Shown here: positions 7,674 through 25,928 of the stretch, in pieces | Numbering within the stretch: position 1 is the first letter of the stretch | Layout: the number at the start of each line of letters is the position of its first letter | DNA from: a virus | DNA length: 25,928 nucleotides | Virus record (IMG/VR): IMGVR_UViG_3300033144_004187 | Span: 1-25,928 of that record | Reading direction: 5' to 3' (one strand) | Made by a program: the position numbers and the translations under genes | The notes under the pieces: model-generated | Database searches by the model: none | What the model was told of the DNA's origin: nothing | Seen by the model: the letters and a program-made list of their open reading frames with translations, nothing else

Positions 7674-9841
7674 GATTACTCAAGTTAGGAAAATTTGAAA
7701 TCAACCTGGGGAGTAGAGAAGATACCCAGCCTCTAGTGGATGAGGATCTCGACATTGATGATGGTGCCAACAGACCCGCTCGGGTAAACAAGATAGCTCG
7801 AAGTAGGGGTGCTGTGTACAATGTCTCAGGAAGAGAATCCGACTTCAAGGAATCTGACTACAACCTTAACGATGTATCTGCGGCTGTGGATACAGAGATC
7901 TATTTCAGGAAAGCCGTAGATCGTTTTGTTGGTGAGGTTTGGAAGAATGGGTGGAGCTTCATTGGTAAAGACCAAGATGCTGTTTTGTATGTAAGAGCGA
8001 GAATCGCTCAGATGGCTGAGGTCATGGAGCAGCCCTTCGAAGATCTACTTCATGATGTAGCAAGACAGCTCATCCAGTTCAGCAACTGCTTTGTCGAGAA
8101 GATCAGAGATGAGAACGCTTCTGGTGGTCGCAGGTGGACGCGCTTTGATGGGAAGGAGTATATCCCCATTGCTGGACTTAAGGTTCTAGATGCCACCTCT
8201 ATGCTCATCAAGAGAAAAGACAACGGCAAGCCGAGCAAATACCAGCAGCGAGTTCCTGGGCATGGTCGAGTACCAGAGTGGCCAGCACAGAACATTCTCC
8301 ATCTGCACTACTTCAGGCAGGTAGGTCTGGATACTGGTACTCCCTTCATTACCCCAGCGTTAGATGACATCAGAGCCCTTCGTAACATGGAACAGAATGT
8401 TGAGATTCTTGTGTTCCAACATGCCGTACCTCTCTTTCATTATACAGTTGGTACAGATGATGCGCCTGCCCAGCCCGGTGAAATCGAGGCTCTAGAGGCC
8501 GAAATTGAGGAGATGCCAAACAGTGGCGTTCTGATCACACCCGAAAGGCATACAGTACAAGTACTTGGAGCCCAGGGTGAGTCTATCAATGCAGAGCCCT
8601 ATCTCCAGTACTTCAAGACAAGAGTCTTGTCTGGTGTTGGACTGGGCTCTATCGCTGTAGGAGAGGGTGATACAGCCAATCGTTCTACTGGCTCTACCAT
8701 CAATACCCTAATCCAAGACACAGCAAAGGTTTTCCAGGTTCGCATCAAGATCTTTATTGACGAACTCATAGAAGAAATCCTCAGAGAAGGACAGTACGAG
8801 TGGGACAAGGCAATGACGCCCAAGCTTGTTGAGTTGTTCATCCCTGAGATTGATGTAGAAACCAAGATTCTCAAAGAGAATCACAATGTGGAAATGTGGG
8901 TACAGAACGCAATCACATCCGCAGAGGCCAGAAGAGAAATGGGTAGAGACCCATTTACTGATGAGGAGTGGGAAGATACATACTGGAAGCGTATCGGTGA
9001 GCCCAAGGCCCTCATTCAGTCACTGGATGAAAAGTTTGTCACTACAGGTGATAACACAGGGGCAGCAACTCTTGGTGGTGGTACTGTCAAGACCAGCAAA
9101 GCATCTGCTAATAAAAACAACCCCAAAAACCAACATGGAAGTAGAGGAGCGCCCAAGACAAGTAAGGACGCTGTAGAAGTTGTAGACGAGATAACTGAAA
9201 AGGTAAAAGACGAGCATGCAAATCTCCTCTATACTTTAGGTTACGCTCAGATGAAGAGAAATCTCATGGGCTTATTGGAAGACATAAAGGCTGATGTCAC
9301 CAATCGAATGTTCATGGAAGATGAAGAACAAAGAGATATTCTCCTTGAGGGATCAGTATCAATGGGGATCGATGCAATGATGCGCGTGAGTGATTTCTAT
9401 ATTCGCAATGCCCTGGAGTTTGGAGCACGAGACTTAGGATACGAGGGACCAATTGATTCGTTTGGTACCTCTATGCTAGTTGATTCAACACGACACGATT
9501 ACGTCAGGTTCGGTAACGACATTCAGAAGTTCATAACTCAATCTTTGAAGGCAGATAACCCAGCAGTTCAGTTCAGAGCCTTCGTTGACACGATCTCTTA
9601 TCGACTAGACTTCATGGCTAGAACACAAATCATGAAGGCAGTCAACTTTGGATCTGCTGAGACTGCTAAGTTCTTGGGAGATAACGAGATAGAGATCAAG
9701 AGCGGAAGTGATGAAAAGCACAAGTGCGGCCCAGGAACTAAAAGGCTCGACATAAGTGGTGGTGTTTCATTGAACTTGCTACCTCCATATCATCCAAATT
9801 GTACATGCGAGGTACTAAGAGTCACGCCAGGTTTGAGTTAA
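7670..9841 (+). CDS. Portal protein with C-terminal MuF-type minor head domain
   Basis: The portal is the dodecameric ring through which DNA enters and leaves the head. I start it at ATG 7670, which overlaps the previous stop (ATGA), rather than at GTG 7658; the product is 723 residues. Residues about 65-450 have portal-like features: AVDRFVGEVWKNGW, QNILHLHYFRQ, a crown/stem region with EIEALEAEIEEMPNSGVLIT, and RREMGRDPFTDEEW near 421-434. A low-complexity Gly/Thr/Lys/Asn linker (about 460-500) leads to a C-terminal domain that ends with ART (650-652), C686 and PPYHPNCTC (705-713). That ending is the signature of the Mu gpF / SPP1 gp7 minor head family. Portal and MuF are separate genes in many phages, so this is a fusion. 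It is followed directly by the protease gene, the usual order. Confidence 0.88.
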   Translation: MRLLKLGKFEINLGSREDTQPLVDEDLDIDDGANRPARVNKIARSRGAVYNVSGRESDFKESDYNLNDVSAAVDTEIYFRKAVDRFVGEVWKNGWSFIGKDQDAVLYVRARIAQMAEVMEQPFEDLLHDVARQLIQFSNCFVEKIRDENASGGRRWTRFDGKEYIPIAGLKVLDATSMLIKRKDNGKPSKYQQRVPGHGRVPEWPAQNILHLHYFRQVGLDTGTPFITPALDDIRALRNMEQNVEILVFQHAVPLFHYTVGTDDAPAQPGEIEALEAEIEEMPNSGVLITPERHTVQVLGAQGESINAEPYLQYFKTRVLSGVGLGSIAVGEGDTANRSTGSTINTLIQDTAKVFQVRIKIFIDELIEEILREGQYEWDKAMTPKLVELFIPEIDVETKILKENHNVEMWVQNAITSAEARREMGRDPFTDEEWEDTYWKRIGEPKALIQSLDEKFVTTGDNTGAATLGGGTVKTSKASANKNNPKNQHGSRGAPKTSKDAVEVVDEITEKVKDEHANLLYTLGYAQMKRNLMGLLEDIKADVTNRMFMEDEEQRDILLEGSVSMGIDAMMRVSDFYIRNALEFGARDLGYEGPIDSFGTSMLVDSTRHDYVRFGNDIQKFITQSLKADNPAVQFRAFVDTISYRLDFMARTQIMKAVNFGSAETAKFLGDNEIEIKSGSDEKHKCGPGTKRLDISGGVSLNLLPPYHPNCTCEVLRVTPGLS

Positions 9842-12876: not shown

Positions 12877-14211
12877 ATGAACAAGATGGACTATTTCGAC
12901 CTCTTCGTCCCCGAAGACGGATTCAAGCCAGAAGAGATCAATGGTATCCATAGACTCTATGACGTAATGACCAACAACGGATGGTGCATTTCTGCATCAG
13001 ACGAAGAGCCTGCTCGTTTGAACATTCAGGACACCCTGATGACAGGCGATGCAACGCGCTTCATTCCCAGAGTTGTTCAGTATATCGTCAGAGAGGCTAT
13101 CGAGCCTAATCTTCTGATCGTGCCGAATCTGTTTGAGGAAGTTCGCATGGGTGCAGGTCGGATGATTGAGATCGGAGCTATTGGAGCAATCTATGCAGCC
13201 GAGATCCCAGAGGGAGCCGAGTACCCGGAGAGGTCTCCTGACCTCGACGGAGGAGACATGGTTGCAGTCACAGTCTCCAAGCACGGACTTCGCATTTCTG
13301 TCACCGACGAGCTCATCGCAGACTCCCAGTGGGATGTATTGAACTTGTGGTTGAGGGCGGCAGGTCGAGCCCTAGCACGCCACAAGGAAAAGAAAGCACT
13401 TCAACTCTTCAACTCCATGGGATACACTGTGTTCAACAATGACCAGAGTGGAACCGATGGCGGCGAGATTGGAGCTCTAACCGGACGTGACCTCACAGGA
13501 GCAGCCAACGGAAGCATGACATTGCACGATATCTTTGACATGTACACCTGGCTCGTTCTACGTGGATTCACACCAGATACCCTTCTCATGCATCCTTTGG
13601 CATGGAAGGTGTTTATGACCGACCCCGAGATAAGGGAGATCGTTCTTCAGGGAGCTACCGTGGCAACACGTAAGATTCCTGCTGGTAATCCTTTCAACGG
13701 TTGGGGAACTGGTTTTGGTGGATTTGGTCTAAGGACTAAGGCAACTGGAGAAAGCGGAACAGCAGGAGCAGCAGCTCTTGGTGGACAGCCTCTACCAGCG
13801 GCCAGCCCTTGGGTCGCCACCCTGAACCCAATGAATGCGACATTCAATTTGCCGCCACGATTCCTGCCAACACCAATGACAGTTCTCGTGTCGCCACATG
13901 TTCCATTTACCCCATCGGTTGCTGGAATCGGTAAGCCATCCACCTCAATTATCATGTGCGATAGTGGTAATTGTGGTATCCTGGTTACCAGAGACCCAGT
14001 CAGCACGGAAGAGTTCGATGACCCAGCACGCGATATTCGTAACCTGAAGATTCGTGAACGCTACGGCCTAAACGTCGTAGAGCAGGGACGCTCTGTTGCT
14101 GTTGCCAAGAACGTCGTGGTTGAGCGCAACTACGTCTTCGATAATGTCAACAGTCAGACCATCGCTGAGATTTCTCAGAGCACTAGCCAGCCTACTGGCC
14201 ACGCCTGGTAA
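12877..14211 (+). CDS. Major capsid protein, HK97-fold (444 aa)
   Basis: The main shell protein. Residues about 88-175 carry the pattern common to HK97-fold capsid proteins: an AAEIPEGAEYPERSP segment, then VSKHGLRISVTDELIADSQW (about 133-152) and a long helix containing ALARHKEKKALQLF. This corresponds to the E-loop/spine-helix part of the fold. A Gly/Ala-rich region around residues 273-305 (GWGTGFGGFGLR, ESGTAGAAALGG) is probably a flexible insertion. The C-terminal domain contains RDIRNLKIRERYGLNVVEQG, typical of the P-domain end of such proteins. Start ATG 12877 follows GGAGG at 12863-12867. The position just after protease, scaffold and accessory head genes is standard. A strong hairpin follows the stop. 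Cleavage by the upstream protease is plausible, but I cannot locate the site. Confidence 0.85.
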   Translation: MNKMDYFDLFVPEDGFKPEEINGIHRLYDVMTNNGWCISASDEEPARLNIQDTLMTGDATRFIPRVVQYIVREAIEPNLLIVPNLFEEVRMGAGRMIEIGAIGAIYAAEIPEGAEYPERSPDLDGGDMVAVTVSKHGLRISVTDELIADSQWDVLNLWLRAAGRALARHKEKKALQLFNSMGYTVFNNDQSGTDGGEIGALTGRDLTGAANGSMTLHDIFDMYTWLVLRGFTPDTLLMHPLAWKVFMTDPEIREIVLQGATVATRKIPAGNPFNGWGTGFGGFGLRTKATGESGTAGAAALGGQPLPAASPWVATLNPMNATFNLPPRFLPTPMTVLVSPHVPFTPSVAGIGKPSTSIIMCDSGNCGILVTRDPVSTEEFDDPARDIRNLKIRERYGLNVVEQGRSVAVAKNVVVERNYVFDNVNSQTIAEISQSTSQPTGHAW

Positions 14212-14950: not shown

Positions 14951-15994
14951 ATGGCTAACCCGTTACTTCTGGTTACCAATCCTGATAACTTAGCTAGTGG
15001 TGTTCCGGCCAATACGATCATAACTGCGACGTTTGATCAAGCAATGGATTCTTCCACCATTACGGATTTGACATTCATTGTGAATGTAGAGAACAGCATT
15101 ACTGATGTATTGGTGGGTAATGTTGATTATCTGCATGGTGAACGTAAGGCTAGATTTACTCCGCTAGCACTTCTAAATTCAGGAATTGAATATAGAGCCA
15201 CCCTCATTGGTGGCTCCATCAAGAATGCCTTTGGAGAGGCTCTAATCTCCAATCCCTCTTGGACCTTCACTGCTTCATCTATCACCATAGAACCAACCGG
15301 AGCAGGAAGTGATCTCATAGCTACCAGTGGTTCTTTACCAGCCACAGGAATATACGGTGCTGAAACCACCAGTTTGAGTATCATTGAAACAGTGCCCGCT
15401 GATGTGGCTGCCTTGGTTGTACAAACACAGGGCGTCAGTCTGTATTTCAATGATGATCTGTGGATAGAGAACCCAACGGCTCCCAGCGTCACAGGGATGG
15501 CTGCTGGAGCCATATCGGACCCAACTGGATGGTTGACTGCCACTGTGTCTATCGAAGCTGAGGCAGCTTTAGGAACAGCCTGGGCTGGCTTCACTCCCAA
15601 TACTCCTCAGTTTGGCCTCACCTATGATCTGGATACCAACATTGCCCTGTTGACTCCAAATGGAACAGGACATGTTGGATCAACATACAGCGGTGGTAAC
15701 TTCGTTCAAGGCACATCCACCTCTGGAGTCTGGGAGCCGATGACCGACTATATCATCACGGTCACCAAGGATAGAATCAAGGGCTTGAATACATCCAACC
15801 TGACCCCAGATTACTCGTTCTTCTTCACCACGATTCTCGACCCCATGTATACCTCCATCCAGATTATCAGGATGGACCTTGGTAGCTTCATCGACAGCGT
15901 TCCAGACAACACAATAGCACTGCTCATTCACAGGAATAGCGTCTATGCTAGCCAGCCCGGTCCAAAACTATGTGCGGCAGTACGTTACATGTAA
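14951..15994 (+). CDS. Ig-like domain connector protein, N-terminal part (347 aa)
   Basis: Residues about 3-110 (TNPDNLASGVPANTIITATF, then FTPLALLNSGIEYRATLIGG) match the SbsA-type bacterial Ig-like domain (Big_5 pattern). A second beta domain follows at about 155-296 (VSLYFNDDLW, DYIITVTKDRIKGL, YSFFFTT). Then comes a helical segment (YTSIQIIRMDLGSFIDSVPD, LLIHRNSVYAS) that ends abruptly in a low-quality tail (QPGPKLCAAVRYM). The helical segment is continued sensibly in the +1 frame by the next gene (NYVRQYVTCKTELDLINALY), so this looks like the first part of one protein. The start ATG 14951 has only a weak AGGA upstream, so coupling to the preceding gene, which ends 11 bases before it, is likely. 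The role is probably neck, connector or virion surface; the Ig-like domains could decorate the particle. Confidence 0.75.
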   Translation: MANPLLLVTNPDNLASGVPANTIITATFDQAMDSSTITDLTFIVNVENSITDVLVGNVDYLHGERKARFTPLALLNSGIEYRATLIGGSIKNAFGEALISNPSWTFTASSITIEPTGAGSDLIATSGSLPATGIYGAETTSLSIIETVPADVAALVVQTQGVSLYFNDDLWIENPTAPSVTGMAAGAISDPTGWLTATVSIEAEAALGTAWAGFTPNTPQFGLTYDLDTNIALLTPNGTGHVGSTYSGGNFVQGTSTSGVWEPMTDYIITVTKDRIKGLNTSNLTPDYSFFFTTILDPMYTSIQIIRMDLGSFIDSVPDNTIALLIHRNSVYASQPGPKLCAAVRYM

Positions 15995-16361
15995 GACAGA
16001 ACTGGACCTGATCAATGCCCTCTATCTGGGCATTGGGAAGCTAGGTAGTGGAAGGCGAACCCTAGGTGATATGTCTATCACCAAGGATGCTGGTGGAGTG
16101 CAGGATCTGGTTGGACCAATCCGAGAAGGACTACTTCTGTGTGTCAAGGAGGCTATGGCCCTGATCAAAACTGGCGGTAGTGGGGTTGTGCCTAAGCATG
16201 CCGTACCTCACCTCAACCAGAGAGAACACCCAGGATTCCCTGATACATGGATGCGAATGGACCAGGAGGATGATGCACCAGATGGGCAATACAAGCCATC
16301 TACTACCATCAGAGCTGGTAGAAACCTCACCTATCCCTTCAAGAGAAGGAGAAACATCTAA
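15945..16361 (+). CDS. Connector-like protein, or +1-frame C-terminus of the Ig-like protein (138 aa)
   Basis: This frame overlaps the end of the Ig-like gene by 50 bases. Its first 30 residues (YVRQYVTCKTELDLINALYL) look like a helical head-tail connector domain that follows directly from the helix ending the upstream gene. GSGRRTLGDMSI and the helix EGLLLCVKEAMALIKTGG follow, then a Pro-rich basic tail. Two readings are possible. It could be a separate gene starting at ATG 15945, with a weak AGGAA at 15932-15936. Or it could be the C-terminal part of a single protein reached by +1 slippage near CCC GGT (15956-15961), which would read ...YASQP-VQNYVRQYV.... A sequencing indel or a real frameshift mutation would look the same. 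It ends in a TAATG overlap with the next gene. Confidence 0.6.
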   Translation: MLASPVQNYVRQYVTCKTELDLINALYLGIGKLGSGRRTLGDMSITKDAGGVQDLVGPIREGLLLCVKEAMALIKTGGSGVVPKHAVPHLNQREHPGFPDTWMRMDQEDDAPDGQYKPSTTIRAGRNLTYPFKRRRNI

Positions 16362-16915
16362 TGGCGAGGGGCAAATACTACCTCCAGACAGCGACCCCCT
16401 ACGACAAAGCCACCAGTATTCAGGGGGAGGGAACCCATATCGATATGCGAACTGAGATGGATGCCATTCTCAGAGGAGATGGATCCACTCCAGGGCAGGG
16501 GCACTGGGTTATCTACAGGCGCTTCGATAAGACCAGGAGATCTGAATATTGGGACGAGGAGTACCGAGAATCAACAGGGGGCCCATCATGGGAATTCTCC
16601 GATGAGATTACCCTGGTTCGACATACACAGATAACAGCGGGCAGTTTAACTCGGTTCTTTGAAATGGAGCTCCCAGCTGGTATGATCCACGTAGATTACC
16701 GTATCTACTATATGGAGCACACAGTTAAGCCCAAAATTGAAGATGAAATTTACGAATTAGACTGGGATGATCATTCGATCAAACCCAGAGTTGAAGATCT
16801 TACTCTTCCAGATATAGGCAAGTACAACATAAATGACATGGTTCCCATGAGGGGGGATAATGGTCGTATCGAATTTTACGCTTGCCTCTGTAGAAGAGAA
16901 AACGTTAGGAGCTAA
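16361..16915 (+). CDS. Neck/head-completion candidate, unknown family (184 aa)
   Basis: The ATG overlaps the previous stop (TAATG), with AAGGAG at 16346-16351 upstream. The protein is compact and rich in Tyr, Trp, Arg and acidic residues (YRRFDKTRRSEYWDEEYRES), with probable beta strands (EITLVRHTQITAG, MIHVDYRIYYMEH). Near residues 125-150 there is a short imperfect duplication: HTVKPKIEDEIYEL then HSIKPRVEDLTL. The C-terminus (RIEFYACLCRRENVRS) has two cysteines. It sits between the connector-like gene and the probable tail terminator, where head-closure or neck proteins normally occur. I cannot name a family. Confidence 0.7.
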   Translation: MARGKYYLQTATPYDKATSIQGEGTHIDMRTEMDAILRGDGSTPGQGHWVIYRRFDKTRRSEYWDEEYRESTGGPSWEFSDEITLVRHTQITAGSLTRFFEMELPAGMIHVDYRIYYMEHTVKPKIEDEIYELDWDDHSIKPRVEDLTLPDIGKYNINDMVPMRGDNGRIEFYACLCRRENVRS

Positions 16916-16917
16916 GA

Positions 16918-17727
16918 ATGGCTGACCCACAGCACGAATTTACTCTCGATGAGAATAGTATTCTGCCGACTGGAGTCAGACAAGATGATGGGTCTTACTC
17001 GGATACGGTCCTTACCGATTCGGATGGAATTATCCCAGCATCAAGAGCAAACCCACCTCGCTTACAATTAGGTGGTAGTGGAGATGTTAAGGATTTTGCA
17101 CATGGGGTATATCAGCTCGTTAAGGTATTGAAACCCGCATTAGTCTTCACGCATGCGTACCCGGAGTCCGTAATCAACCATGGAGATCAAGAACCAGACA
17201 GGACGAATAGAGTGCCCACGTTTGCACCCACTATCACCTGGAAGGTTTTTAGAAGAGAACCTGGCAGTCTAGGCGAAAAACCATTCGGTCCCAGGACAAT
17301 GAAGAAACCAAGAATCATGGAACGTGCAGTACAGAGCGAGACTAACCCGGAGTTTCTCGTAGCTATTTACGAAATGGACTATGATAACATCTTGCAGTTT
17401 GATATCTTCTCTGAGACCAATGAGGAATGTGAAGACATAGCAGTCTGGTTTGAAGACGCTATGATCATGTTTCTCTCATATTTTCAAGAGCTAGGCTTTA
17501 AGAGGGTTTTCTTCTTCAGACGGTTCGTTGATGAACATGTGGAGAGGATGGCCACCGGGCTGAATAGTAGAAGTTTACATTATTATGTTCGAACCAACAG
17601 ATATTTCCAGACTGAGGCAGCAAAGCTCAAGGAAATACTTGTGAAACTACTGGAAACAGTTACAACTGAAGAAGAGTACATAGATTTCCGCACTGGAAAA
17701 CTTCAAGACGATCTCTTCAGTAACTAA
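16918..17727 (+). CDS. Probable tail terminator/tail completion protein (269 aa)
   Basis: Immediately precedes the tail sheath gene, the classic place for the protein that caps the tail tube and joins it to the neck. ATG 16918 follows AGGAG at 16907-16911. The first 100 residues are hydrophilic and extended. The remainder alternates strands and helices: FLVAIYEMDYDNILQFDIFS, then a helix with EECEDIAVWFEDAMIMFLSY, then FKRVFFFRRFVDEHVERM, LHYYVRTNRYFQTEAAKL and a C-terminal helix (KEILVKLLETVTTEEEY). This alternating pattern, with a long helix followed by paired strands, fits gpU/gp15-type tail terminators. The assignment rests on position and secondary-structure feel, not on a diagnostic motif. 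Confidence 0.5.
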   Translation: MADPQHEFTLDENSILPTGVRQDDGSYSDTVLTDSDGIIPASRANPPRLQLGGSGDVKDFAHGVYQLVKVLKPALVFTHAYPESVINHGDQEPDRTNRVPTFAPTITWKVFRREPGSLGEKPFGPRTMKKPRIMERAVQSETNPEFLVAIYEMDYDNILQFDIFSETNEECEDIAVWFEDAMIMFLSYFQELGFKRVFFFRRFVDEHVERMATGLNSRSLHYYVRTNRYFQTEAAKLKEILVKLLETVTTEEEYIDFRTGKLQDDLFSN

Positions 17728-17741
17728 GGAGGAATGTTCAA

Positions 17742-20267
17742 ATGGCAGACCGTTATCCAAATCTACCAAATGTATCATCCACATTGGAAGATGGTGGTCT
17801 TCAGCTAGCCAGACAGACTGACCTTGGTGACAGTATAGTGATTTTGGGAACCGCTGAAAAAGGTCCTCTGAATGTACCCGTAGCTCTGACAGGATTGAGT
17901 CAGGCTAAGGCAACATTCGGATCTTACGGAGCGGGAACTCTTGTTCGTGGTCTTTTTGAAGCCCAGGGTGCAACACCCCAGGGTAAGGACCTCAGAGGAT
18001 GCAGAGTTGGAAATGCAACCAGAGCTACTCTTTCTTTTGCCGAAGCAACGGGCGCAATTAGTGTGGAATATGATGATCCCACTTATGAGTCAAGCGGCAT
18101 TGCAATTGCAGATGCATTTGTAATGAGTGCAAAGAAAGAAGGGGATGACTACAACAACGCCACTATCAAGATGGACTACATCGATGGTAGGTTGGCTGTT
18201 GTGGTATGGAATCCCATCACCGGATTGGAAAGTTCATACAGCTACAATGCTGATCCGCTACAAGAAGCAACAGTTCACAACGTAAGCGAGCTGGTTACAG
18301 CTATCAATGCTGATAGCAATCTGAATGATGACTTCGAGGCAACTATGAAGGACCTCGATATCGCATTCGAAGTAGATATCATTGCCAGTGGAGATGCTTA
18401 CGCTAGTGGAGTGACCGTGGTTGGTGATAACATCCGCGTAGAACTAAGAACTAGATTGGACAATCTGGTTGTTGGAGATGGAGGCACATACCCAAGTGGT
18501 GTGCATGATGTGGTTGGTCTTTATGGCGACTACGCTTCTAACTTCCCAACAGTCGGAAACAAGATTGTCAGCGTTGACAGTGTTTATCAGATTGCCGAAT
18601 CAACCGGAATAGGTATTGTCTCCGGAGGAAGAGGATCTGTAGATCTCGTCAATGCTCCCTACAAGGAAGAAACAACAGACAAGTACATTGGTGATGCAGC
18701 AGGTACATCCTACGCTGCAGCCGAAGCAATTCAGGTTGTCAATGGTGGCTACATAGCCACAATTGAAGACACAGCAGTGGAAGTCTACGCTTGGGATTCA
18801 GTTGGAGATGTTCAGGCTGCTTCTCTTGTTGTCTACAAGACAGTCGGTGGAGTGAGAAGTACAATGGCGCTCACCACTGACTATGTAGCAACAGTTACAG
18901 CCCCAACTCCTTCCATTGATTTTGTAACAGGGAAGGTACCTGATCCTGGATCAATCATCACCGTAGACTACATCACCGAACCAGTGTCCATTACGGAGTA
19001 CTCAACTCGCCAGACAGCTCTAGATACGCTCTCATGGCAGTCGTACTTCATCTCTGGAAACACCATGACGTTCGGTGGATCACCACCAACCGACCTGAGA
19101 ATCACATACAAGTACAAGAACAACTTCGGTATCGGAGGAGAAGTAATTCTGGAAGATGCCGATAAGGGTAAGTTCTTGTTCCCAGCAGGCACCCCGAATA
19201 ACTGGAAGAGCGCTCTCGATGTTGCTACCATGGCTGCTCCTGTTACTCTTGGGTTCACATACACCTACCAGCCCGAATGGATCACACTAGGATTTAGCGC
19301 TGTTGCCCTCAAGGGTGGTAGCGATGGTGTAATCATGACGAATGCTGAGAAGTACACAGCTCTGGCTGCTGGTTATGAGGCTCTAGAGGATTATGAGGCA
19401 GACATCTTTGTCCCAGTAGCTTGCTACCTGGATGATACAAAGGCTGTCTTCAATCCAGAGACTGGTACATCAGAAACTCAGAATGCTGCGTTCCATACTC
19501 AGCTTCATACCTTCCTGAGTGATCACGCTGATGGTGTGAATGAGGCTATTGGTATTATTTCAACCAAGCCAGCCACATCGAACCTACCAGCGGGTGTGAC
19601 CACTTGGTACAAGGGTCTGACTGAGACAAGCACATCTGATGTTCTAAGGGCGGCCAATATCATGTCCGTCTTTGATAGTAAGTTCGTCAGCGTGCTCTCT
19701 ATGGAGCCTATCTTCTCAAACACAGAAGTCAGTCTTCCATACACAGCAACAGGCGAGTCAGCCTACGCTGGACTGATGTCGGGACTAACACCGGGTCAGG
19801 CCACCACAAACAAGAGAGTCGATGGACTGTCAGGACTGAGATATGCCCTATCTAGGGGTCGTCTTGATAAGCTCACGGAACTCAGGTATGTGACTATGCG
19901 TATGGGTGCCAATGGAACCCCAGGTCTGGTGATCACTGATGGTGTTACAGCAGCAGCTGCTGGATCAGACTACGTGAGAATCAGTACCGTGCGTGGTGTC
20001 TTTGGAGCCATGCAGGTTGTTCGTCTAACTGCCTCTCCATTCATTGGAGAGCCAGGAGACGCAGAAGGAAGAGCAGCCCTTGAAGCAGCAATCACCAAGG
20101 GTCTGCATAGCATGGTGGAGTCCAGAGACATTCGTGACTTCGCTCTCAACATCACCTCAACGGTACAACAGCAGATTCAGGGTATCGTTGATGTGGAAAT
20201 GATTATCGTACCGCAGTTCGAGATGAGAAAGATCAGAGTTACCGTCAAGATCAGACCGTCTCTATAA
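17742..20267 (+). CDS. Tail sheath protein (841 aa)
   Basis: The contractile sheath subunit. The N-terminal stretch DSIVILGTAEKGPLNVPVAL (about residues 30-49), followed by ATFGSYGAGTLVRGLFEA (about 57-74), is characteristic of phage sheath proteins. The C-terminal end also fits: AITKGLHSMVESRDIRDFAL near 783-802 and MIIVPQFEMRKIRVTVKI near the end match the conserved C-terminal domain that contacts the tube. At 841 residues it is longer than the T4 sheath (659 residues). The middle (about residues 85-500) is beta-rich, Gly/Thr-rich and probably holds inserted surface domains. Start ATG 17742 follows AAGGAGG at 17726-17732. A stable hairpin follows the stop codon. Confidence 0.9.
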   Translation: MADRYPNLPNVSSTLEDGGLQLARQTDLGDSIVILGTAEKGPLNVPVALTGLSQAKATFGSYGAGTLVRGLFEAQGATPQGKDLRGCRVGNATRATLSFAEATGAISVEYDDPTYESSGIAIADAFVMSAKKEGDDYNNATIKMDYIDGRLAVVVWNPITGLESSYSYNADPLQEATVHNVSELVTAINADSNLNDDFEATMKDLDIAFEVDIIASGDAYASGVTVVGDNIRVELRTRLDNLVVGDGGTYPSGVHDVVGLYGDYASNFPTVGNKIVSVDSVYQIAESTGIGIVSGGRGSVDLVNAPYKEETTDKYIGDAAGTSYAAAEAIQVVNGGYIATIEDTAVEVYAWDSVGDVQAASLVVYKTVGGVRSTMALTTDYVATVTAPTPSIDFVTGKVPDPGSIITVDYITEPVSITEYSTRQTALDTLSWQSYFISGNTMTFGGSPPTDLRITYKYKNNFGIGGEVILEDADKGKFLFPAGTPNNWKSALDVATMAAPVTLGFTYTYQPEWITLGFSAVALKGGSDGVIMTNAEKYTALAAGYEALEDYEADIFVPVACYLDDTKAVFNPETGTSETQNAAFHTQLHTFLSDHADGVNEAIGIISTKPATSNLPAGVTTWYKGLTETSTSDVLRAANIMSVFDSKFVSVLSMEPIFSNTEVSLPYTATGESAYAGLMSGLTPGQATTNKRVDGLSGLRYALSRGRLDKLTELRYVTMRMGANGTPGLVITDGVTAAAAGSDYVRISTVRGVFGAMQVVRLTASPFIGEPGDAEGRAALEAAITKGLHSMVESRDIRDFALNITSTVQQQIQGIVDVEMIIVPQFEMRKIRVTVKIRPSL

Positions 20268-20271
20268 ATCC

Positions 20272-20297
20272 GGTAGGGGGCCTTCGGGCCCCTCACC
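20272..20297 (+). terminator. UUCG-loop hairpin after the tail sheath gene
   Basis: GGTAGGGGGCC (20272-20282), loop TTCG, GGCCCCTCACC (20287-20297): ten of eleven positions pair, counting one G-T wobble and one A-C mismatch. The TTCG loop closed by C-G is a very stable RNA tetraloop. There is no T run after it, so it is more likely an mRNA-stabilising or partial termination element than a strong intrinsic terminator. It starts 4 bases after the sheath stop. Confidence 0.65.
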
Positions 20298-20319: not shown

Positions 20320-20976
20320 ATGGCACTATCACCACAAACTTCGGTTGGTGGTCTGGTAGGTCTCCAGACAAGCCAGTACACTAGAACGTACACCTCCTTT
20401 TCCGGATGTGATATCAAGGTCGTATTTCACAACCAAGTTATCTCTGAGATTCAGGGAATTAGTTACTCTGTAACAAGGGAAAAGGCTCCTGTCTATACAA
20501 TGGGACAGGCAGACCCGCGTGCGTTTTCTAGGGGAAAGCGAGGAATTGCTGGTTCCTTGATCTTCACAGTCTTCGACAGGCATGTTATGCACAATCTTGT
20601 GAATAACAGTTTGTATGCTGCTAAGTTTGATGATTGGCGAAATCCAGAAGAGACCATCCTTGCTGTTCATGAAGCAGGTGGATTGGCTACGGATCTGAAC
20701 CTAAATGCTCAGCTCAGAAGGGCTGTGTATTCTGATCAGATTCCTCCTTTCGACGTCACCCTTAGTGCTGCCAATGAGTATGGCCAGATGGCTAGCATGA
20801 GACTCTATGGTGTAGAAATCCTCAACGAAGGTTCCGGTCTTTCAATTGATGACATCATCAATGAAGCCCAGATGACCTTTGTTGCTAGATCTCTTACCCC
20901 ATGGATTCCAGTCGAGAGACCAGCCAGCCCAATCATGGACATCGGAGGCAACCAGGCTTTCACAGTCACAACCTAA
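20320..20976 (+). CDS. Tail tube protein (218 aa)
   Basis: Follows the sheath, as tube genes do in contractile phages. Features shared with the next gene include SFSGCDIKV, YSVTREKAPVYTMG, FSRGKRGIAGSLIFTVFDR and PPFDVTLSAANEYGQMASMR. These match tail-tube-like proteins of large Gram-positive myoviruses of the SPO1/Twort type, as far as I can judge from memory. The domain is a single beta sandwich of the usual tube size, which suits a stacked hexameric ring through which DNA passes. Start ATG 20320 follows GGAGG at 20306-20310. The stop codon is part of a small hairpin and is followed by a second, stronger one. Among the three tube-like genes this one is the best candidate for the main tube subunit. 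Confidence 0.82.
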   Translation: MALSPQTSVGGLVGLQTSQYTRTYTSFSGCDIKVVFHNQVISEIQGISYSVTREKAPVYTMGQADPRAFSRGKRGIAGSLIFTVFDRHVMHNLVNNSLYAAKFDDWRNPEETILAVHEAGGLATDLNLNAQLRRAVYSDQIPPFDVTLSAANEYGQMASMRLYGVEILNEGSGLSIDDIINEAQMTFVARSLTPWIPVERPASPIMDIGGNQAFTVTT

Positions 20977-20990
20977 TCCACCTTGGATTA
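20974..20990 (+). other. Small perfect hairpin covering the tube gene stop codon
   Basis: TAATCCA (20974-20980), loop CCT, TGGATTA (20984-20990): a perfect 7-pair stem that includes the TAA stop. It is directly upstream of the larger terminator-like hairpin, so the two may act together at the 3' end of the tube mRNA. Confidence 0.5.
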
Positions 20991-21000
20991 GATCAGTTTG

Positions 21001-21035
21001 GGAGGGTGGGCTACTACGCTCACCCTCCTTTATCT
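21001..21035 (+). terminator. Terminator-like hairpin after the tail tube gene
   Basis: GGAGGGTGGGC (21001-21011), loop TACTAC, GCTCACCCTCC (21018-21028) give an 11-pair stem with one G-T wobble, followed by TTTATCT. This is the best intrinsic-terminator candidate of the three hairpins in the window. The next gene's ribosome site (AGGAGG 21036-21041) begins a few bases later. Confidence 0.7.
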
Positions 21036-21045
21036 AGGAGGCCAC

Positions 21046-22014
21046 ATGTCAGTACATACTGGTCCTAATGGACTATCAGAAACAACATTTGAAACCAGTA
21101 GAGCTAAGAGTGAAAAAGCTCAGATCACGGAGCAGAGAAATACAATTTCTGTTGCTCCTGCTCGTGACTTGAACTATGCATCATTTTCAGGTTGTGATAT
21201 ATCGGTACTAGCATACGCTGGTGGTCGTCTCAAAAAGTTTGCTGAGATGATGACATTCTCATATTCAGTTCACAGAGAGAAGTACCCTGTGCGAGTATGT
21301 GGTCTGAGTAACCCCAAGGGTTACACCAGAGGAACGAGAACCATTGCTGGTAGTATGATTTTCACGGTGTTTGATCGAAACGCCTTCTGGGATATTCTGA
21401 CCAAGAACCCACGCGATCTTCCCGACAGGAGAAGTGAAACTCCCCTGATCGATGCAATCCCCCCAATTGACCTAACCATCTCCTTCACCAACGAGTTCGG
21501 ATACCACTCAAGAATGACCATCTATGGTGCTGAGCTAGTAGACCACGGCATGACCATGTCTGTAGACGATATCATCACCGAGCAGGTGGTAAGCTACACA
21601 GCCAGAGACATCACCGAAATGGCACCTCCCGGAGGAGAACACGGACCAGATGGTGGATTGAATAGCGGCAGCGCAGTCTTCTTCAGTGGCTACCCGAGTG
21701 ATATAGAGGTCCATAGGTACTATGGGGCTCTGCGTGAACTCTGGAAGCTTAACCAGAAACTTCTCACAACCAAGCAACGCCAGGAAGGTCTGGATGCAGC
21801 AGACGCTCAGTACCTGGAAGCATACAACTCCTTGGAGCTAGATATCCGCAGTCTAGAAACCAAGATAGAGAATATCAAGAAGAGCATCAATTCGGATATG
21901 TTGGATGATTACAATAGATTAGCCAGCACGGATGAACATGGAAGATTCAGAGCTGACTACAATGCAGGGGCATCTCCGATAGCTCCCAGATGGACATACA
22001 ATGACATTCGATAG
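21046..22014 (+). CDS. Tail-tube-like protein, paralog with coiled-coil extension (322 aa)
   Basis: I start at ATG 21046, which follows AGGAGG at 21036-21041; an in-frame TTG at 20998 lies before the terminator hairpin and is unlikely. Residues about 45-200 align with the preceding tube gene: ASFSGCDISV, YSVHREKYPVRVCGL, YTRGTRTIAGSMIFTVFDR, PPIDLTISFTNEFGYHSRMT and SVDDIITEQVVSYTARDI. After the tube fold there is a Gly-rich linker (PPGGEHGPDGGLNSG) and a helical coiled coil of about 70 residues (LRELWKLNQKLLTTKQRQEG, LDIRSLETKIENIKKSINSD). The extension suggests a specialised ring, for example the tube initiator at the baseplate, rather than the repeated tube subunit. The exact place in the tail is inferred. 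Confidence 0.75.
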   Translation: MSVHTGPNGLSETTFETSRAKSEKAQITEQRNTISVAPARDLNYASFSGCDISVLAYAGGRLKKFAEMMTFSYSVHREKYPVRVCGLSNPKGYTRGTRTIAGSMIFTVFDRNAFWDILTKNPRDLPDRRSETPLIDAIPPIDLTISFTNEFGYHSRMTIYGAELVDHGMTMSVDDIITEQVVSYTARDITEMAPPGGEHGPDGGLNSGSAVFFSGYPSDIEVHRYYGALRELWKLNQKLLTTKQRQEGLDAADAQYLEAYNSLELDIRSLETKIENIKKSINSDMLDDYNRLASTDEHGRFRADYNAGASPIAPRWTYNDIR

Positions 22015-22026
22015 TCTGGTAAGACC

Positions 22027-22056
22027 TTGTAAAACCACACTCATAGGTGGTACAAT
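22027..22056 (+). promoter_or_regulatory. Candidate sigma70-type promoter
   Basis: TTGTAA (22027-22032), an 18-base spacer and TACAAT (22051-22056) match four and five of six consensus positions. It lies in the 59-base gap before the third tube-like gene, one of the longer gaps here. AT-rich gaps easily produce such matches by chance, and a weak inverted repeat (ACCAC/GTGGT) falls in the spacer. Confidence 0.3.
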
Positions 22057-22073
22057 AATACCCGAGGTGACCC

Positions 22074-23249
22074 ATGGCCGACGAACGTAGCAGAACAAAT
22101 CTACCACCAAAATACGATGATTTTTACCCAGCAGGCACACAAGCTAAGGTCTTCTTTGGATCTGTGTGGGTAGATGATCTTGTCTCAATTCAGTGGGATG
22201 CTGTGGAGCAAAAGGCTCCTTTGTATGGGTATAACTCAGATCTTTTTGATGGTGTTGCTGCTGGAACAAAGATTGTCCAGGGCGTACTAACCATCGCATT
22301 CAAGAAAGCGGGGTATATCCCCGCAATCCTCACCTCTCTAAGACAGAGAGGTATTGGTTCTTTGGATCCTATAGGTGATTTCAAGAGAGCCAAGGCAGAT
22401 AGAAGAAACGAACAACGACGTCTCAGTTGGAGACCAACAGTCAATACAACCCCGCTTACAGGTGCATTAGAGGATTCTGTAACTCCGGGGCCTCGCACTA
22501 ACAACATTGAACAGCTTCTGGATCTTGCCAAGCAAGACGATAACTCCCTCTATGAGATGATCGCTGAGAACCTCAGGAACTCAATATGGGGAAACACCAG
22601 GAGCAACCCGTTCACAGTCACCGATCATGATAAGTCCGAGACGGGACTAAAAGTGGTTAGGGGCTTCGATATTTTCATAACGTATGGTCACATAGAAGGA
22701 GACCAAGAAGACTTTACGAAGAAGCTCATAGAGAATTGCCACATTACAGCAGTAAGGCAGCAATTCGGAGCTACCGGAGAACCCATCATGGAGGGGTATA
22801 CATTCTTCGGTAAAGTTCTCGATCCTCACTTAGCGACATTCAACCAAGTGTTCAAACAAGCGGACAAAGAAGATCCTATCAAGATTCAGGATGAAGCAGA
22901 GAAGAGCGAACAGGTCCGGGCTCAAGTCGATACATATAGGCCTGATTTACAAACACCAGGAACAACAGGAGGTACTGTCGTTCTGACAGTCCCAAATGGT
23001 TTGACGGAAGCAGGATGGGTTATTTCCGATGTCAAACCAATGGGAGTAGAGGAACACGGTATTGTTCCTGACTTTCTGTTTGATGTCTCTCCTGGTAGCA
23101 AGGTCACGGTTGTCGATATAAATCTAGGGCCCACTTCTCCAGAACACTATTCAATGGGAAGAATTGTTATAGAGTACACCATGGTCAAGAACGGAACCAC
23201 CAGTCGCACACTTAGGACTGGTTCCATCTTGATCCCTATTAAGCAGTAA
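22074..23249 (+). CDS. Third tail-tube-like protein with C-terminal Ig-like domain (391 aa)
   Basis: The N-terminal region (GTQAKVFFGSVWVDDLVSIQ, AVEQKAPLYGYNSDLFDGVA, then GTKIVQGVLTIAFKKAGYI) follows the same strand pattern as the two preceding tube genes: metal-free beta strands, the K-x-P-x-Y-x-x turn, then GxxIVxGxxxIxF. A second half-domain appears after an insertion: VVRGFDIFITYGHIEGDQED and IENCHITAVRQQFGATGEPI correspond to the last strands of the tube fold. The inserted part (about residues 100-190) is charged and helical. The C-terminus (about 300-391, GTVVLTVPNGLTEAGWVISD onward) is a separate beta domain. Start ATG 22074 has GAGGTGA at 22064-22070. It is probably a tail-tube or baseplate-hub ring protein. 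The homology is visible but distant. Confidence 0.65.
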   Translation: MADERSRTNLPPKYDDFYPAGTQAKVFFGSVWVDDLVSIQWDAVEQKAPLYGYNSDLFDGVAAGTKIVQGVLTIAFKKAGYIPAILTSLRQRGIGSLDPIGDFKRAKADRRNEQRRLSWRPTVNTTPLTGALEDSVTPGPRTNNIEQLLDLAKQDDNSLYEMIAENLRNSIWGNTRSNPFTVTDHDKSETGLKVVRGFDIFITYGHIEGDQEDFTKKLIENCHITAVRQQFGATGEPIMEGYTFFGKVLDPHLATFNQVFKQADKEDPIKIQDEAEKSEQVRAQVDTYRPDLQTPGTTGGTVVLTVPNGLTEAGWVISDVKPMGVEEHGIVPDFLFDVSPGSKVTVVDINLGPTSPEHYSMGRIVIEYTMVKNGTTSRTLRTGSILIPIKQ

Positions 23250-23267: not shown

Positions 23268-23714
23268 ATGCCTAAGAAACCCGTCAAAGAAGAATTACTA
23301 GTAGAAGAACCAGAGCTTGTAGAGGTCGAGACCGAAAAAGAGGTCACGATGGAAGAGGCTATGGCTGAAGCTGCTAGCATGATCGTACAAGAGACACCCA
23401 ATCTTCAGGACACTGTCGATGCCCTGAAGGAAGAGAACCCAGAGAGTGACCTATTCCTCAGTACAATAGGGTCTGACACCTATATCTTTAAGTCTTTGGA
23501 TCGAGTAACATACAATGACTTCATAACCAAGAGCGAAGGTATGGTTGATCCTGGGATGATTGAAGAACTAGTTTGTGACATGTGTGTTCTTCACCCTGGA
23601 CCACAGAACTTTGAGATCTTGAAGGAACGACAGGGAGGTCTAATCACTGCTCTTTCAGAGGAAATCTACAAGGTCAGTGGGTTTGCTGTGGTACTACCTC
23701 CAGTTAAGCTCTAA
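23268..23714 (+). CDS. Tail assembly chaperone-like protein 1 (148 aa)
   Basis: Small acidic protein between the tube genes and the long tail gene, the position of gpG/gpT-type tail assembly chaperones, which hold the tape measure during tail growth. The N-terminal 45 residues are almost all Glu, Val and Lys (EELLVEEPELVEVETEKEVT). The domain follows: FLSTIGSDTYIFKSLDRVTY, IEELVCDMCVLHPGPQNFEI, GGLITALSEEIYKVSGFA. The same domain pattern recurs at the start of the next gene. Start ATG 23268 has AGGAGG at 23258-23263. The function rests on position and this pattern. Confidence 0.65.
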   Translation: MPKKPVKEELLVEEPELVEVETEKEVTMEEAMAEAASMIVQETPNLQDTVDALKEENPESDLFLSTIGSDTYIFKSLDRVTYNDFITKSEGMVDPGMIEELVCDMCVLHPGPQNFEILKERQGGLITALSEEIYKVSGFAVVLPPVKL

Positions 23715-23732: not shown

Positions 23733-24476
23733 ATGGTGGACATACAAAGTCTCAAAGAGCAATTCGGTCCTCTCTTCAAGGTAACGGTAGGGGGGACCGA
23801 TTTCATATTCAAGCAACTGTCTATAGGTGAGTTCAGTGAGATTGGAGATATGGATTTAACTCCTGATGTCGCTGATACAATACTCCAGAATGGGGTGGTG
23901 TATCCCGAGGAGTATCAGCTTCGATTGGGAGAACTCCTGGGCTTATCTGAGGCCATATTGAAAACATCAGGCTGGTCCGATCCTGATATCTTTCTTGATG
24001 TTTTGGATGATAAAAGGAAGACAACCAACCTCATGTTTCCACAGGCAAAATCAGCACTGTGTACTGTGTTCAATATGAAGCCACGCGAAGTTGATGAATT
24101 ACAGATTGAAGAGTTTGCTGAGTTGGTCTCTCAAGCTGAGTCAGCTATGGGACAGCGCTTGTTCAAGAGCAAGAGAAGAAATAAAGAGTCAAATGAACAC
24201 GGCCCCATCCCTGAGATGAGACCAGTACCAGAAGATGGCAAGTGGGCTGCTAGTCCTGGTGATCTACAGAGCGCAGGGATTGCTCCTGCTTTCAACTCTT
24301 TGATAGAGCGCATAGAGGACGAAACAGGCAACACACCACTCACATACAATGAAGCCAAGAAACTGAAGAGGAGACCATCCGAGAACCTACCAAAAGCAGA
24401 ACTCAATAAGGAGGTTCAGTGGGTGGATGACTTGAGGAAATACCAGAAGCCAGAAGAGTGGCCGGATGGAAAATAA
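23733..24476 (+). CDS. Tail assembly chaperone-like protein 2 (247 aa)
   Basis: Residues about 10-80 repeat the fold of the preceding gene: VTVGGTDFIFKQLSIGEFSE matches its STIGSDTYIFKSLDRVTYND, and GLSEAILKTSGW matches its ALSEEIYKVSGF. The rest is mostly helical and charged, with KSALCTVFNMKPREVDELQI and EEFAELVSQAESAMGQRLFK, typical of the T-part of a tail chaperone. The C-terminal third is hydrophilic and extended, ending in WVDDLRKYQKPEEWPDGK. It has its own strong ribosome site (AAGGAGG 23720-23726) and start, and lies in the same reading frame as gene 1 with two stops between them. The stop overlaps the next start (TAATG). Confidence 0.65.
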   Translation: MVDIQSLKEQFGPLFKVTVGGTDFIFKQLSIGEFSEIGDMDLTPDVADTILQNGVVYPEEYQLRLGELLGLSEAILKTSGWSDPDIFLDVLDDKRKTTNLMFPQAKSALCTVFNMKPREVDELQIEEFAELVSQAESAMGQRLFKSKRRNKESNEHGPIPEMRPVPEDGKWAASPGDLQSAGIAPAFNSLIERIEDETGNTPLTYNEAKKLKRRPSENLPKAELNKEVQWVDDLRKYQKPEEWPDGK

Positions 24477-25928
24477 TGGGACAGAACGAATCATACTACG
24501 ATGAGTACTATGCGGAAGCACGGGAGACCATACCTGTAGGGTTGGATGATATCCCTATTCCGGGTTCGTTCAAGACAGCGGACCTCCTGCGTCTAGGTGC
24601 CACTCTTGTTGCCTTCCCTATTGTCATCGGTGCTCTCCATAAGGGCATGGGCCGAATAGGCCCAACCCTCAGTAGAGGGCTCGCCACAGGTATAGCCAAA
24701 TCCCTCAGACCTACCAGTATCTACACCAGGGCGTTTAGTCGGATCAAAGCATCCAGTTCAGGTCCAGGACCCACTCTCTCCCAGACAGTGGAGTCCATGC
24801 CCAAGGATCACTTCCTGAACATCCTTCGCTCACGCATGACGAAGAAGACAACTTCCATGACCCAGGAGTACATGCAGTGGAAGAGTAGATCTGCCCAGCT
24901 CATGGCCCAGCGTCGTTCTGGTGGTATGTCTCCCGTTCGAGCAAGAGCTATCCGATCTCAGGAGTTCTTCAGGAAGCTAAGCGATCCTAAGTTTGTCAAG
25001 AGTGGTATGGCTCGTCATGCCCAGCAGTACATGAAGAGATCGTTTGCATTCTACGGTGCAGCTAGAATCATTGGTGGTGTTGAAGGTCATGATGATGGTC
25101 CAAGCATCTTTAATCCAGTTGGTACGGCTCTGGACTTCATGAAGTTCACGGTTGGGTTCTATCCTATAGATCTGGCTCTACTTGGTGGCGGAAAGATTAT
25201 CTCTCAGAGTTTCCATGGAGGGGCTGGTGCTCTACAGGGAGCCCTTGGTCGTAACAAAGACAACATGCGTAAGTACATGGCTCGCCATGCTGCTGGTGCT
25301 GCGAAGTGGAGAGAGAAGTTAGCATCTTCTGCTTATGGCTCCAGAGGAGCCTGGAGGAAATACAGAGACCAAGTCAAGTGGCGAGACACACCACCGCATA
25401 AGTCAGTAGGAATGGTTGGTAAGTATGGACTAGCTCAAACGGGTAAACTTCTCAAGGCTGGGTGGGATCAGGGTGTGGGGCAGCGCAGGCAGATCATTCA
25501 AGAGAGAAGAAAAGATCCATACATCACTGAGGCATTGCGAGTAGCAGCTGGTGCTATGGATAAGGCATCCAGAGCGGTTGGTGGTCAAACAAGCGGTAAC
25601 TTCTCTTCTGCTCCTGTTGACGACAGGCAAATGCTGCGTGGTGCTCTGAAGGATGAATTCAAGAAAGCTTCTGAGTGGAAGCCCAGTTTCTTTGAAGACC
25701 TCATGGGACTGGAAAGAGCCAAGCTTGCTGAGACAGCCAGAAGACACGTAGCTGAGAAAATGGTCAAGACCTGGGGACTTGGTAAGGCTGGTGAAAGCCA
25801 GGAGCAGTTCTACCAGATGTACACCAAGAATATGTACAACGACCGGATGGTTTACAACCTGGGTGATGGTAAGACCATGGACCTCAGTCCATTCAACCCC
25901 AAGAGTGGCATCCAGAAGATATACAGAC
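24476..25928 (+). CDS. N-terminus of a large tail protein, possibly tape measure (3'-partial)
   Basis: ATG 24476 overlaps the previous stop (TAATG), and the frame stays open for 484 codons to the window end, so the full protein is larger. Following the chaperone pair, the gene is in the usual tape-measure position. The visible part starts acidic (ESYYDEYYAEARETIPVGLD), then has a hydrophobic segment (LLRLGATLVAFPIVIGAL, about residues 37-54). After that come Arg/Lys-rich helices (TKKTTSMTQEYMQWKSRSAQ, GGMSPVRARAIRSQEFFRKL). Two more hydrophobic stretches lie around residues 190-202 and 219-243 (FMKFTVGFYPIDLALLGGGK). The remainder is basic and helical. It does not show a long regular heptad repeat in the visible part, so the tape-measure call is from position and size. 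An alternative is a large virion-associated ejection or lytic protein. Confidence 0.55.
   Translation, partial: MGQNESYYDEYYAEARETIPVGLDDIPIPGSFKTADLLRLGATLVAFPIVIGALHKGMGRIGPTLSRGLATGIAKSLRPTSIYTRAFSRIKASSSGPGPTLSQTVESMPKDHFLNILRSRMTKKTTSMTQEYMQWKSRSAQLMAQRRSGGMSPVRARAIRSQEFFRKLSDPKFVKSGMARHAQQYMKRSFAFYGAARIIGGVEGHDDGPSIFNPVGTALDFMKFTVGFYPIDLALLGGGKIISQSFHGGAGALQGALGRNKDNMRKYMARHAAGAAKWREKLASSAYGSRGAWRKYRDQVKWRDTPPHKSVGMVGKYGLAQTGKLLKAGWDQGVGQRRQIIQERRKDPYITEALRVAAGAMDKASRAVGGQTSGNFSSAPVDDRQMLRGALKDEFKKASEWKPSFFEDLMGLERAKLAETARRHVAEKMVKTWGLGKAGESQEQFYQMYTKNMYNDRMVYNLGDGKTMDLSPFNPKSGIQKIYR

Follow-up and report, generated by a model that had tools for sequence, protein, structure and literature searches.

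Why should a phage with a contractile tail carry three tail tube genes in a row? The question is raised by IMG/VR virus record IMGVR_UViG_3300033144_004187, a stretch of 25,928 bases (the window, that is, the whole of the DNA analysed) with a head and tail gene cluster on the plus strand. A sequence-only reading had proposed that three consecutive genes, here called T1, T2 and T3, encode tube folds that arose by local duplication and then specialised into tube, initiator and hub rings, or that together build a hetero-tube; the coordinates given for them (20320, 21046 and 22074) were correct. Our analysis favors, with moderate confidence, that the trio is a set of ancient tube paralogues in which T1 would supply the shaft in high copy, whereas T2 and T3 would form low-copy end rings, most likely at the baseplate. 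The three genes are as follows (lengths in amino acids, aa).

20320..20976, plus strand: T1, 218 aa, most likely the main tail tube protein (T2 paralogue; annotated homologues; constant length)
21046..22014, plus strand: T2, 322 aa, with a tube fold at about residues 44-195 and a predicted helical-hairpin C-terminal tail (AlphaFold2 model, PDB matches)
22074..23249, plus strand: T3, 391 aa, with a diverged tube fold at about residues 13-255, a helical insertion and a C-terminal region whose fold is uncertain (hhalign to T1; AlphaFold2 model, PDB matches)

The longest open reading frame of T2 opens at a TTG (20998); the ATG at 21046 is preceded by AGGAGG and was therefore used as the start.

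Three adjacent genes with a tail tube fold

T1 and T2 are clear paralogues, as their blastp alignment shows (35% identity over 178 positions, E 1e-34). The single-sequence matches of T3 are far weaker (E 0.004 to T1 and E 0.38 to T2), but family profiles compared with hhalign connect not only T1 and T2 (E 5.6e-48) but also T1 and T3 (E 3.6e-13, probability 97.9), the latter with the whole domain aligned. A T1 hidden Markov model (HMM; at most 27 chosen loci were used per group, T3 proteins longer than 450 aa were left out of the alignment and T2 was cut to 300 aa) was run with a cutoff of E < 1e-3: it recovered 38 of the 54 T3 proteins in the set examined first and 39 of the 51 from held-out loci, but missed the T3 of the window itself (E 0.095). 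Pfam gave no match to T1, T2 or T3 of the window, and searches of solved structures with their single sequences and with the T1 and T3 profile alignments returned no tail protein, a task for which sequence search may be too weak.

AlphaFold2 models were built for T2 and T3 from alignments of 42 and 43 relatives, each out of 54 (near-duplicates, named phage records, very long proteins and the fragment L005 were excluded). In the T2 model, the β-core has a predicted local distance difference test (pLDDT) score of mostly 85-97, and the top PDB matches are tail and neck chains of phage 812 (Foldseek E 1.7e-7); every one of its best solved matches is a chain of a tail tube or tail end (VIA Z up to 10.3), and these come from phage 812, phage lambda, contractile injection systems and other sources. 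The T3 model is less certain overall (mean pLDDT 63.4, with 71-95 in the β-core), and its top Foldseek matches are diffocin (E 1.6e-5) and phage 812 (E 5.4e-5), while superposition on a phiCD508 tail chain gave a Z of 11.9 and a root mean square deviation of 3.1 over 123 aligned residues. Chains of the antifeeding prophage (AFP) and the Photorhabdus virulence cassette (PVC) are also among the structural matches, including those of T3. A short strand, a long two-strand hairpin, a helix and three more strands follow each other in both models, and T2 and T3 are thus predicted to carry the phage-type tail tube β-sandwich with its long hairpin and helix. T1 would share this fold, because it is homologous to T2. 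That T3 is an unrelated neighbor is ruled out by its hhalign match to T1, its model and its PDB matches.

The central claim of the sequence-only reading, three consecutive tube-fold paralogues, is thus upheld by the T1-T2 sequence match, the T1-T3 profile match and the two models, both of which contain the tube fold. Some of its details fared less well. The motifs quoted as common to all three genes are present in T1 (all three) and T2 (the last as NEFG), but T3 has degenerate traces only (EQKAPLYGY). The coiled-coil tail of T2 agrees with predicted C-terminal helices at residues 218-246, 254-280 and 283-294. For T3, the divergence was confirmed and a helical insertion is predicted (helices within residues 81-172); the extra C-terminal β domain was modeled only at a pLDDT of about 33-53 and is not established.

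Recurrence and age of the trio

Relatives of T1 were drawn from viral contigs, genomes, phage records and plasmid records, so that T1 is present in these loci by construction of the search. A locus was counted as unique if it shared the last 120 T1 residues with no other, which left 127 of 148 loci, close relatives still being counted separately. T3 of L033, L040, L042 and L058 and both T2 and T3 of L053 and L055 were assigned by position. The order T1-T2-T3 was found in 92 of the 93 unique loci that have T1 and at least 5 kb downstream (the exception is L148), and in 51 of 52 held-out loci, which had not been used for HMM building. The arrangement therefore exceeds chance. The family is common in viral metagenomes, where at least 550 stretches were confirmed.

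A tree of 32 loci (95 domains, quick method) put T1 and T3 each on one side of a branch with a Shimodaira-Hasegawa-like approximate likelihood ratio (SH-aLRT) of 99, and the three labels need only two changes on it; T2 was not recovered as a single clade. The T1 and T3 groups each span phages and phage-like plasmids of Bacillus/Paenibacillus/Cytobacillus, Moorella and Acinetobacter. Since the trio occurs in phages of Bacillus, Moorella and Acinetobacter, the duplications would predate that spread, and the trio is, on the evidence of the tree, an ancient, conserved set. A recent local duplication is rejected on the same grounds, and with it the "local duplication" of the sequence-only reading, if taken as recent or local. 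The view that three tube genes in a row are unusual among contractile phages needs context as well, because nearly the whole lineage has them: the trio is real, conserved and mostly ordinary for its lineage, and the idea of specialisation is reasonable.

T3 has evolved fast (mean column identity of 14%, compared to 34% for T1), as might be expected if T2 and T3 stood outside the finished tail, whether as assembly factors or as copies that have diverged and are partly redundant. We regard this as very unlikely: both genes have been kept in all but one of the 93 unique loci described above, and gp142 of Bacillus phage 0305phi8-36, the counterpart of T3 by numbering, is reported as a virion protein (PMC2147016).

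The T1 and T3 profiles found nothing besides the trio in six named records, a direct tblastn search at loose limits gave only matches of E 4 or worse beyond four records already found, and a degenerate-pattern scan with the T3 of the window yielded 11 stretches, none of which was confirmed.

Variations on the arrangement were seen in individual loci. A fourth, partial tube-like frame lies 3' of T3 in L043 and L050 (14718-15533 in both), L037 (15985-16557) and L099 (12151-12564), and the L033 record (G008) has two further T3-like frames about 8-9 kb from its trio (contig positions 147037-148816). L145, a contig binned as Acholeplasmataceae, has two adjacent T1 copies (5755-6932 and 8484-9665). 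The T1 gene is interrupted in L047 (7030-7210), L043 (7959-8911), L044 (6498-8570) and both L053 and L055 (1713-5734); the interruption in L047 is a group I intron (Rfam RF00028 match), and in the other four, matches to the T1 profile fall into separate pieces. A gene of about 590-644 aa stands between T2 and T3 in L018 (9434-11368), L027 (10082-11854), L037 (10796-12598), L043 (11073-12872) and L044 (10753-12552); those of L018, L027 and L043 were scanned and had no Pfam or PHROG match.

Protein lengths, cargo domains and spacers

The three proteins differ in their freedom to grow. None of 123 untruncated T1 proteins exceeds 400 aa (median, 218 aa). T2 ranges from 167 to 1367 aa (118 untruncated cases, 29 above 400 aa) and T3 from 182 to 1691 aa (103 cases, 14 above 400 aa), and the extra sequence sits before, after or inside the tube domain. 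A Pfam scan of the 27 T3 proteins longer than 320 aa found a transglycosylase SLT domain in L031 (E 7.4e-22) and an NlpC/P60 domain in L038 (E 5.5e-8), and a lysozyme-like match in L035 (E 9.8e-4) that lies below the Pfam curated cutoff. These three loci belong to one clade of related contigs (T1 70-97% identical in the clade and 71-84% among the three). No wall-degrading enzyme domain was found in the 37 long T2 proteins scanned. The T3 of L145 has a staphylococcal-nuclease-like domain in its N-terminal part. Intein and LAGLIDADG domains were placed in T2 of L031 (8733-11096) and L084 (9721-12060), with a weak match in L051 (8760-10415).

The spacers between the genes differ, too. Gene starts were set by a ribosome-site rule, only spacers of 30-250 nucleotides (nt) were folded, and z scores were taken against dinucleotide shuffles. 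In the window, two strong hairpins flank T1.

20272..20297, plus strand: strong hairpin with a TTCG loop in the sheath-T1 spacer (spacer fold, -21.8 kcal/mol)
21000..21029, plus strand: strong hairpin in the T1-T2 spacer (spacer fold, -29.4 kcal/mol)

Across 107 loci, the T1-T2 gap has a median of 71 nt and is 10 nt or less in only 2, whereas the T2-T3 gap has a median of 2 nt, is 10 nt or less in 71 and is an overlap in 42. A strong hairpin (z < -2) was found in 82 of 97 T1-T2 spacers (91 of 100 in an earlier run with single-base shuffles) and in 26 of the 36 sheath-T1 spacers that are long enough, but in only 5 of 42 spacers between T3 and the next gene.

These data bear on the possibility of a hetero-tube, in which a very long tail would have a sheathed tube built from two or all three of the proteins, either in alternation or zone by zone. 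One fold is common to all three, the shortest T2 (174-181 aa) and T3 proteins are no bigger than a bare tube protein, and jumbo phages do have long tails. Phage G, moreover, has two tube-like candidates, gp179 and gp180, between the sheath and the chaperonins, and its authors left open whether both form the tube (PMC8570332); it is likened here by description and has two genes, not three. We nevertheless consider a hetero-tube unlikely, because the T2 and T3 extensions of relatives, which reach hundreds of residues, would clash under the sheath along the tube. The uniformly short T1 also argues against it, and the hairpin after T1 together with the near contiguity of T2 and T3 suggests unequal output of the three genes.

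A model of one shaft and two end rings

T4 (gp19/gp54/gp48) and the antifeeding prophage (Afp1/Afp5/Afp7) have one main tube protein and low-copy baseplate rings of the tube fold, whose genes stand apart from the tube gene; the window has all three tube-fold genes adjacent. In our model, T1 would be made in high copy and stack into the tube enclosed by the sheath, which fits its uniformly short length and its flanking hairpins. T2 and T3 would be low-copy, co-expressed rings that end the tube, in keeping with two genes that are nearly contiguous and free to grow. T2 would serve as the adaptor ring adjoining the tube, and T3, adjoining the hub, would lie outermost. The space outside the sheath at T3 would let lineages add domains, such as the peptidoglycan-cutting ones of one clade; as with other tail-tip enzymes, wall-degrading domains on T3 favor the distal end of the tail, where the T2 and T3 rings are probably located. 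Specialisation as such, which the sequence-only reading had suggested, thus gains support from the constant length of T1, the extensions, the enzyme fusions and the layout of expression; the exact identities of the rings (initiator, hub) are putative. From the same observations we infer the copy numbers, the ring positions and the order T1-T2-T3-hub.

Alternatively, T2, T3 or both might be neck proteins, forming rings that terminate the tube or connect head and tail. A tube-like fold is possible for terminator proteins, and cap and neck chains are among the PDB matches of both models. However, conserved virion-structural genes (15945-17724, two of which match PHROGs named virion structural protein) lie 5' of the sheath, where genes for the neck and terminator usually stand, and the wall-degrading domains of T3 in one clade would suit a distal site better. 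We therefore hold a neck position to be improbable.

Several observations weigh against placing T2 and T3 as rings at the baseplate. The PDB matches are all tube-like chains, and since caps and tubes have such chains as well as baseplates, the position of a ring cannot be read from the fold. Enzyme-bearing T3 proteins are restricted to one clade (3 of 27, one of them subthreshold), the comparison with 0 of 37 T2 proteins is not significant alone, and the T3 of the window showed no enzyme domain in the scan; the clade evidence suggests a distal end to a small degree. The argument from T2 extensions is weakened by inteins, which are present in at least 3 of the 37 long T2 proteins, and some relatives have no extension at all (T2 of KLEB27-3, 181 aa, and of MTATph1, 174 aa). 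Strong folding is not confined to the surroundings of T1, since 9 of 21 spacers of the gene pair after T3 fold strongly. A T-run follows the post-T1 hairpin in only 29 of 105 cases; the hairpins need not be terminators, therefore, and may act in processing or stability as well.

If the model of a T1 shaft with T2 and T3 end rings is extended to all relatives, three ancient paralogues would be a fixed feature of the tail tube throughout the lineage of large contractile phages, one as a plain shaft and the other two as end rings. The rings would act as swappable platforms that replace the usual, unrelated-looking initiator and tail lysozyme parts, and the last of them would carry wall-cutting equipment in some phages. 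We put this forward tentatively, as somewhat short of an even bet. A fixed trio of tube paralogues is a clean set for studying the way in which phages mark their tube ends and the way in which a tail tip comes to have cell wall enzymes.

Relatives, annotation and neighboring genes

Adjacent tube genes are of an already known kind. Bacillus phage vB_BauM_KLEB27-3 (OM634661.1) has, like the window, a sheath gene, three genes annotated as tail tube protein (gp026-gp028), two small genes and a large structural protein. Its proteins are 51% (T1), 42% (T2) and 25% (T3) identical to those of the window, but its T2 and T3 (240 aa) are shorter, without the coiled-coil tail of T2 and the long C terminus of T3. 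Acinetobacter phage ME3 has the same order (gp030-gp032); its third gene scores with the T3 profile, although its T1 is only 30% identical to that of the window. The ME3 record notes name the first two trio genes as homologous to YP_001429631 and YP_001429632, which are 0305phi8-36 proteins, and gp140-gp142 of that phage are the counterparts of the trio by numbering, with homology that is indirect, via these notes. In that phage, chaperonins gp143 and gp144 follow gp142 (PMC2147016). The order of sheath, T1, T2, T3, two chaperone-position genes and a large protein in the window matches that of KLEB27-3, MTATph1, ME3 and three plasmid records, and by this gene order the window trio belongs to a tail module of the 0305phi8-36 type.

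What this analysis adds is the division of roles and how regularly it recurs in the lineage. The literature search, which hardly reached subscription journals, found no paper describing the three-gene set or the role split, and a search on two named relatives gave no match. Homologues of T1 are annotated as tail tube or major structural protein; most members of the trio family are labelled hypothetical or bear the incorrect name major head protein. The latter name, given to phrog_9206, seems to have been put by mistake on a tail tube family and has been carried into phage annotations (OR602862.1, NC_041884.1). It was rejected as a guide to function because the window has a separate major head protein match (12877-14208) and the models of T2 and T3 resemble tail tubes.

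Upstream of the trio, PHROG profile matches give the order portal, major head protein and sheath. The genes next to the trio are listed below.

17742..20267, plus strand: tail sheath gene directly 5' of the trio (phrog_16991 tail sheath, E 1.4e-60; Pfam DUF2586, E 1.8e-11)
23268..23714, plus strand: first gene of the pair in tail assembly chaperone position, gp143-like by position (position only; weak PHROG match of unknown function)
23733..24476, plus strand: second gene of that pair (position only; weak PHROG match of unknown function)
24458..25927, plus strand: start of a large protein, gp145/tape measure region, cut by the window end (open frame; position as KLEB27-3 gp031 and ME3 gp035)

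The pair is assigned by comparison with ME3 gp033, plasmid records annotated as tail chaperonin, and 0305phi8-36 gp143/gp144; the large protein had no PHROG match. PF05489 (LysM-type tail protein X) was found in none of six records, and neither was PF04965, despite KLEB27-3 genes annotated as baseplate wedge subunit; divergence of the lineage may put it beyond the reach of these models. T1 relatives were also present in nine plasmid records of 200-240 kb from Bacillus, Paenibacillus and Cytobacillus (including NZ_AP025341.1, NZ_CP048288.1 and NZ_CP065512.1), which are probably phage-plasmids, with the full tail gene order in the three that were inspected.

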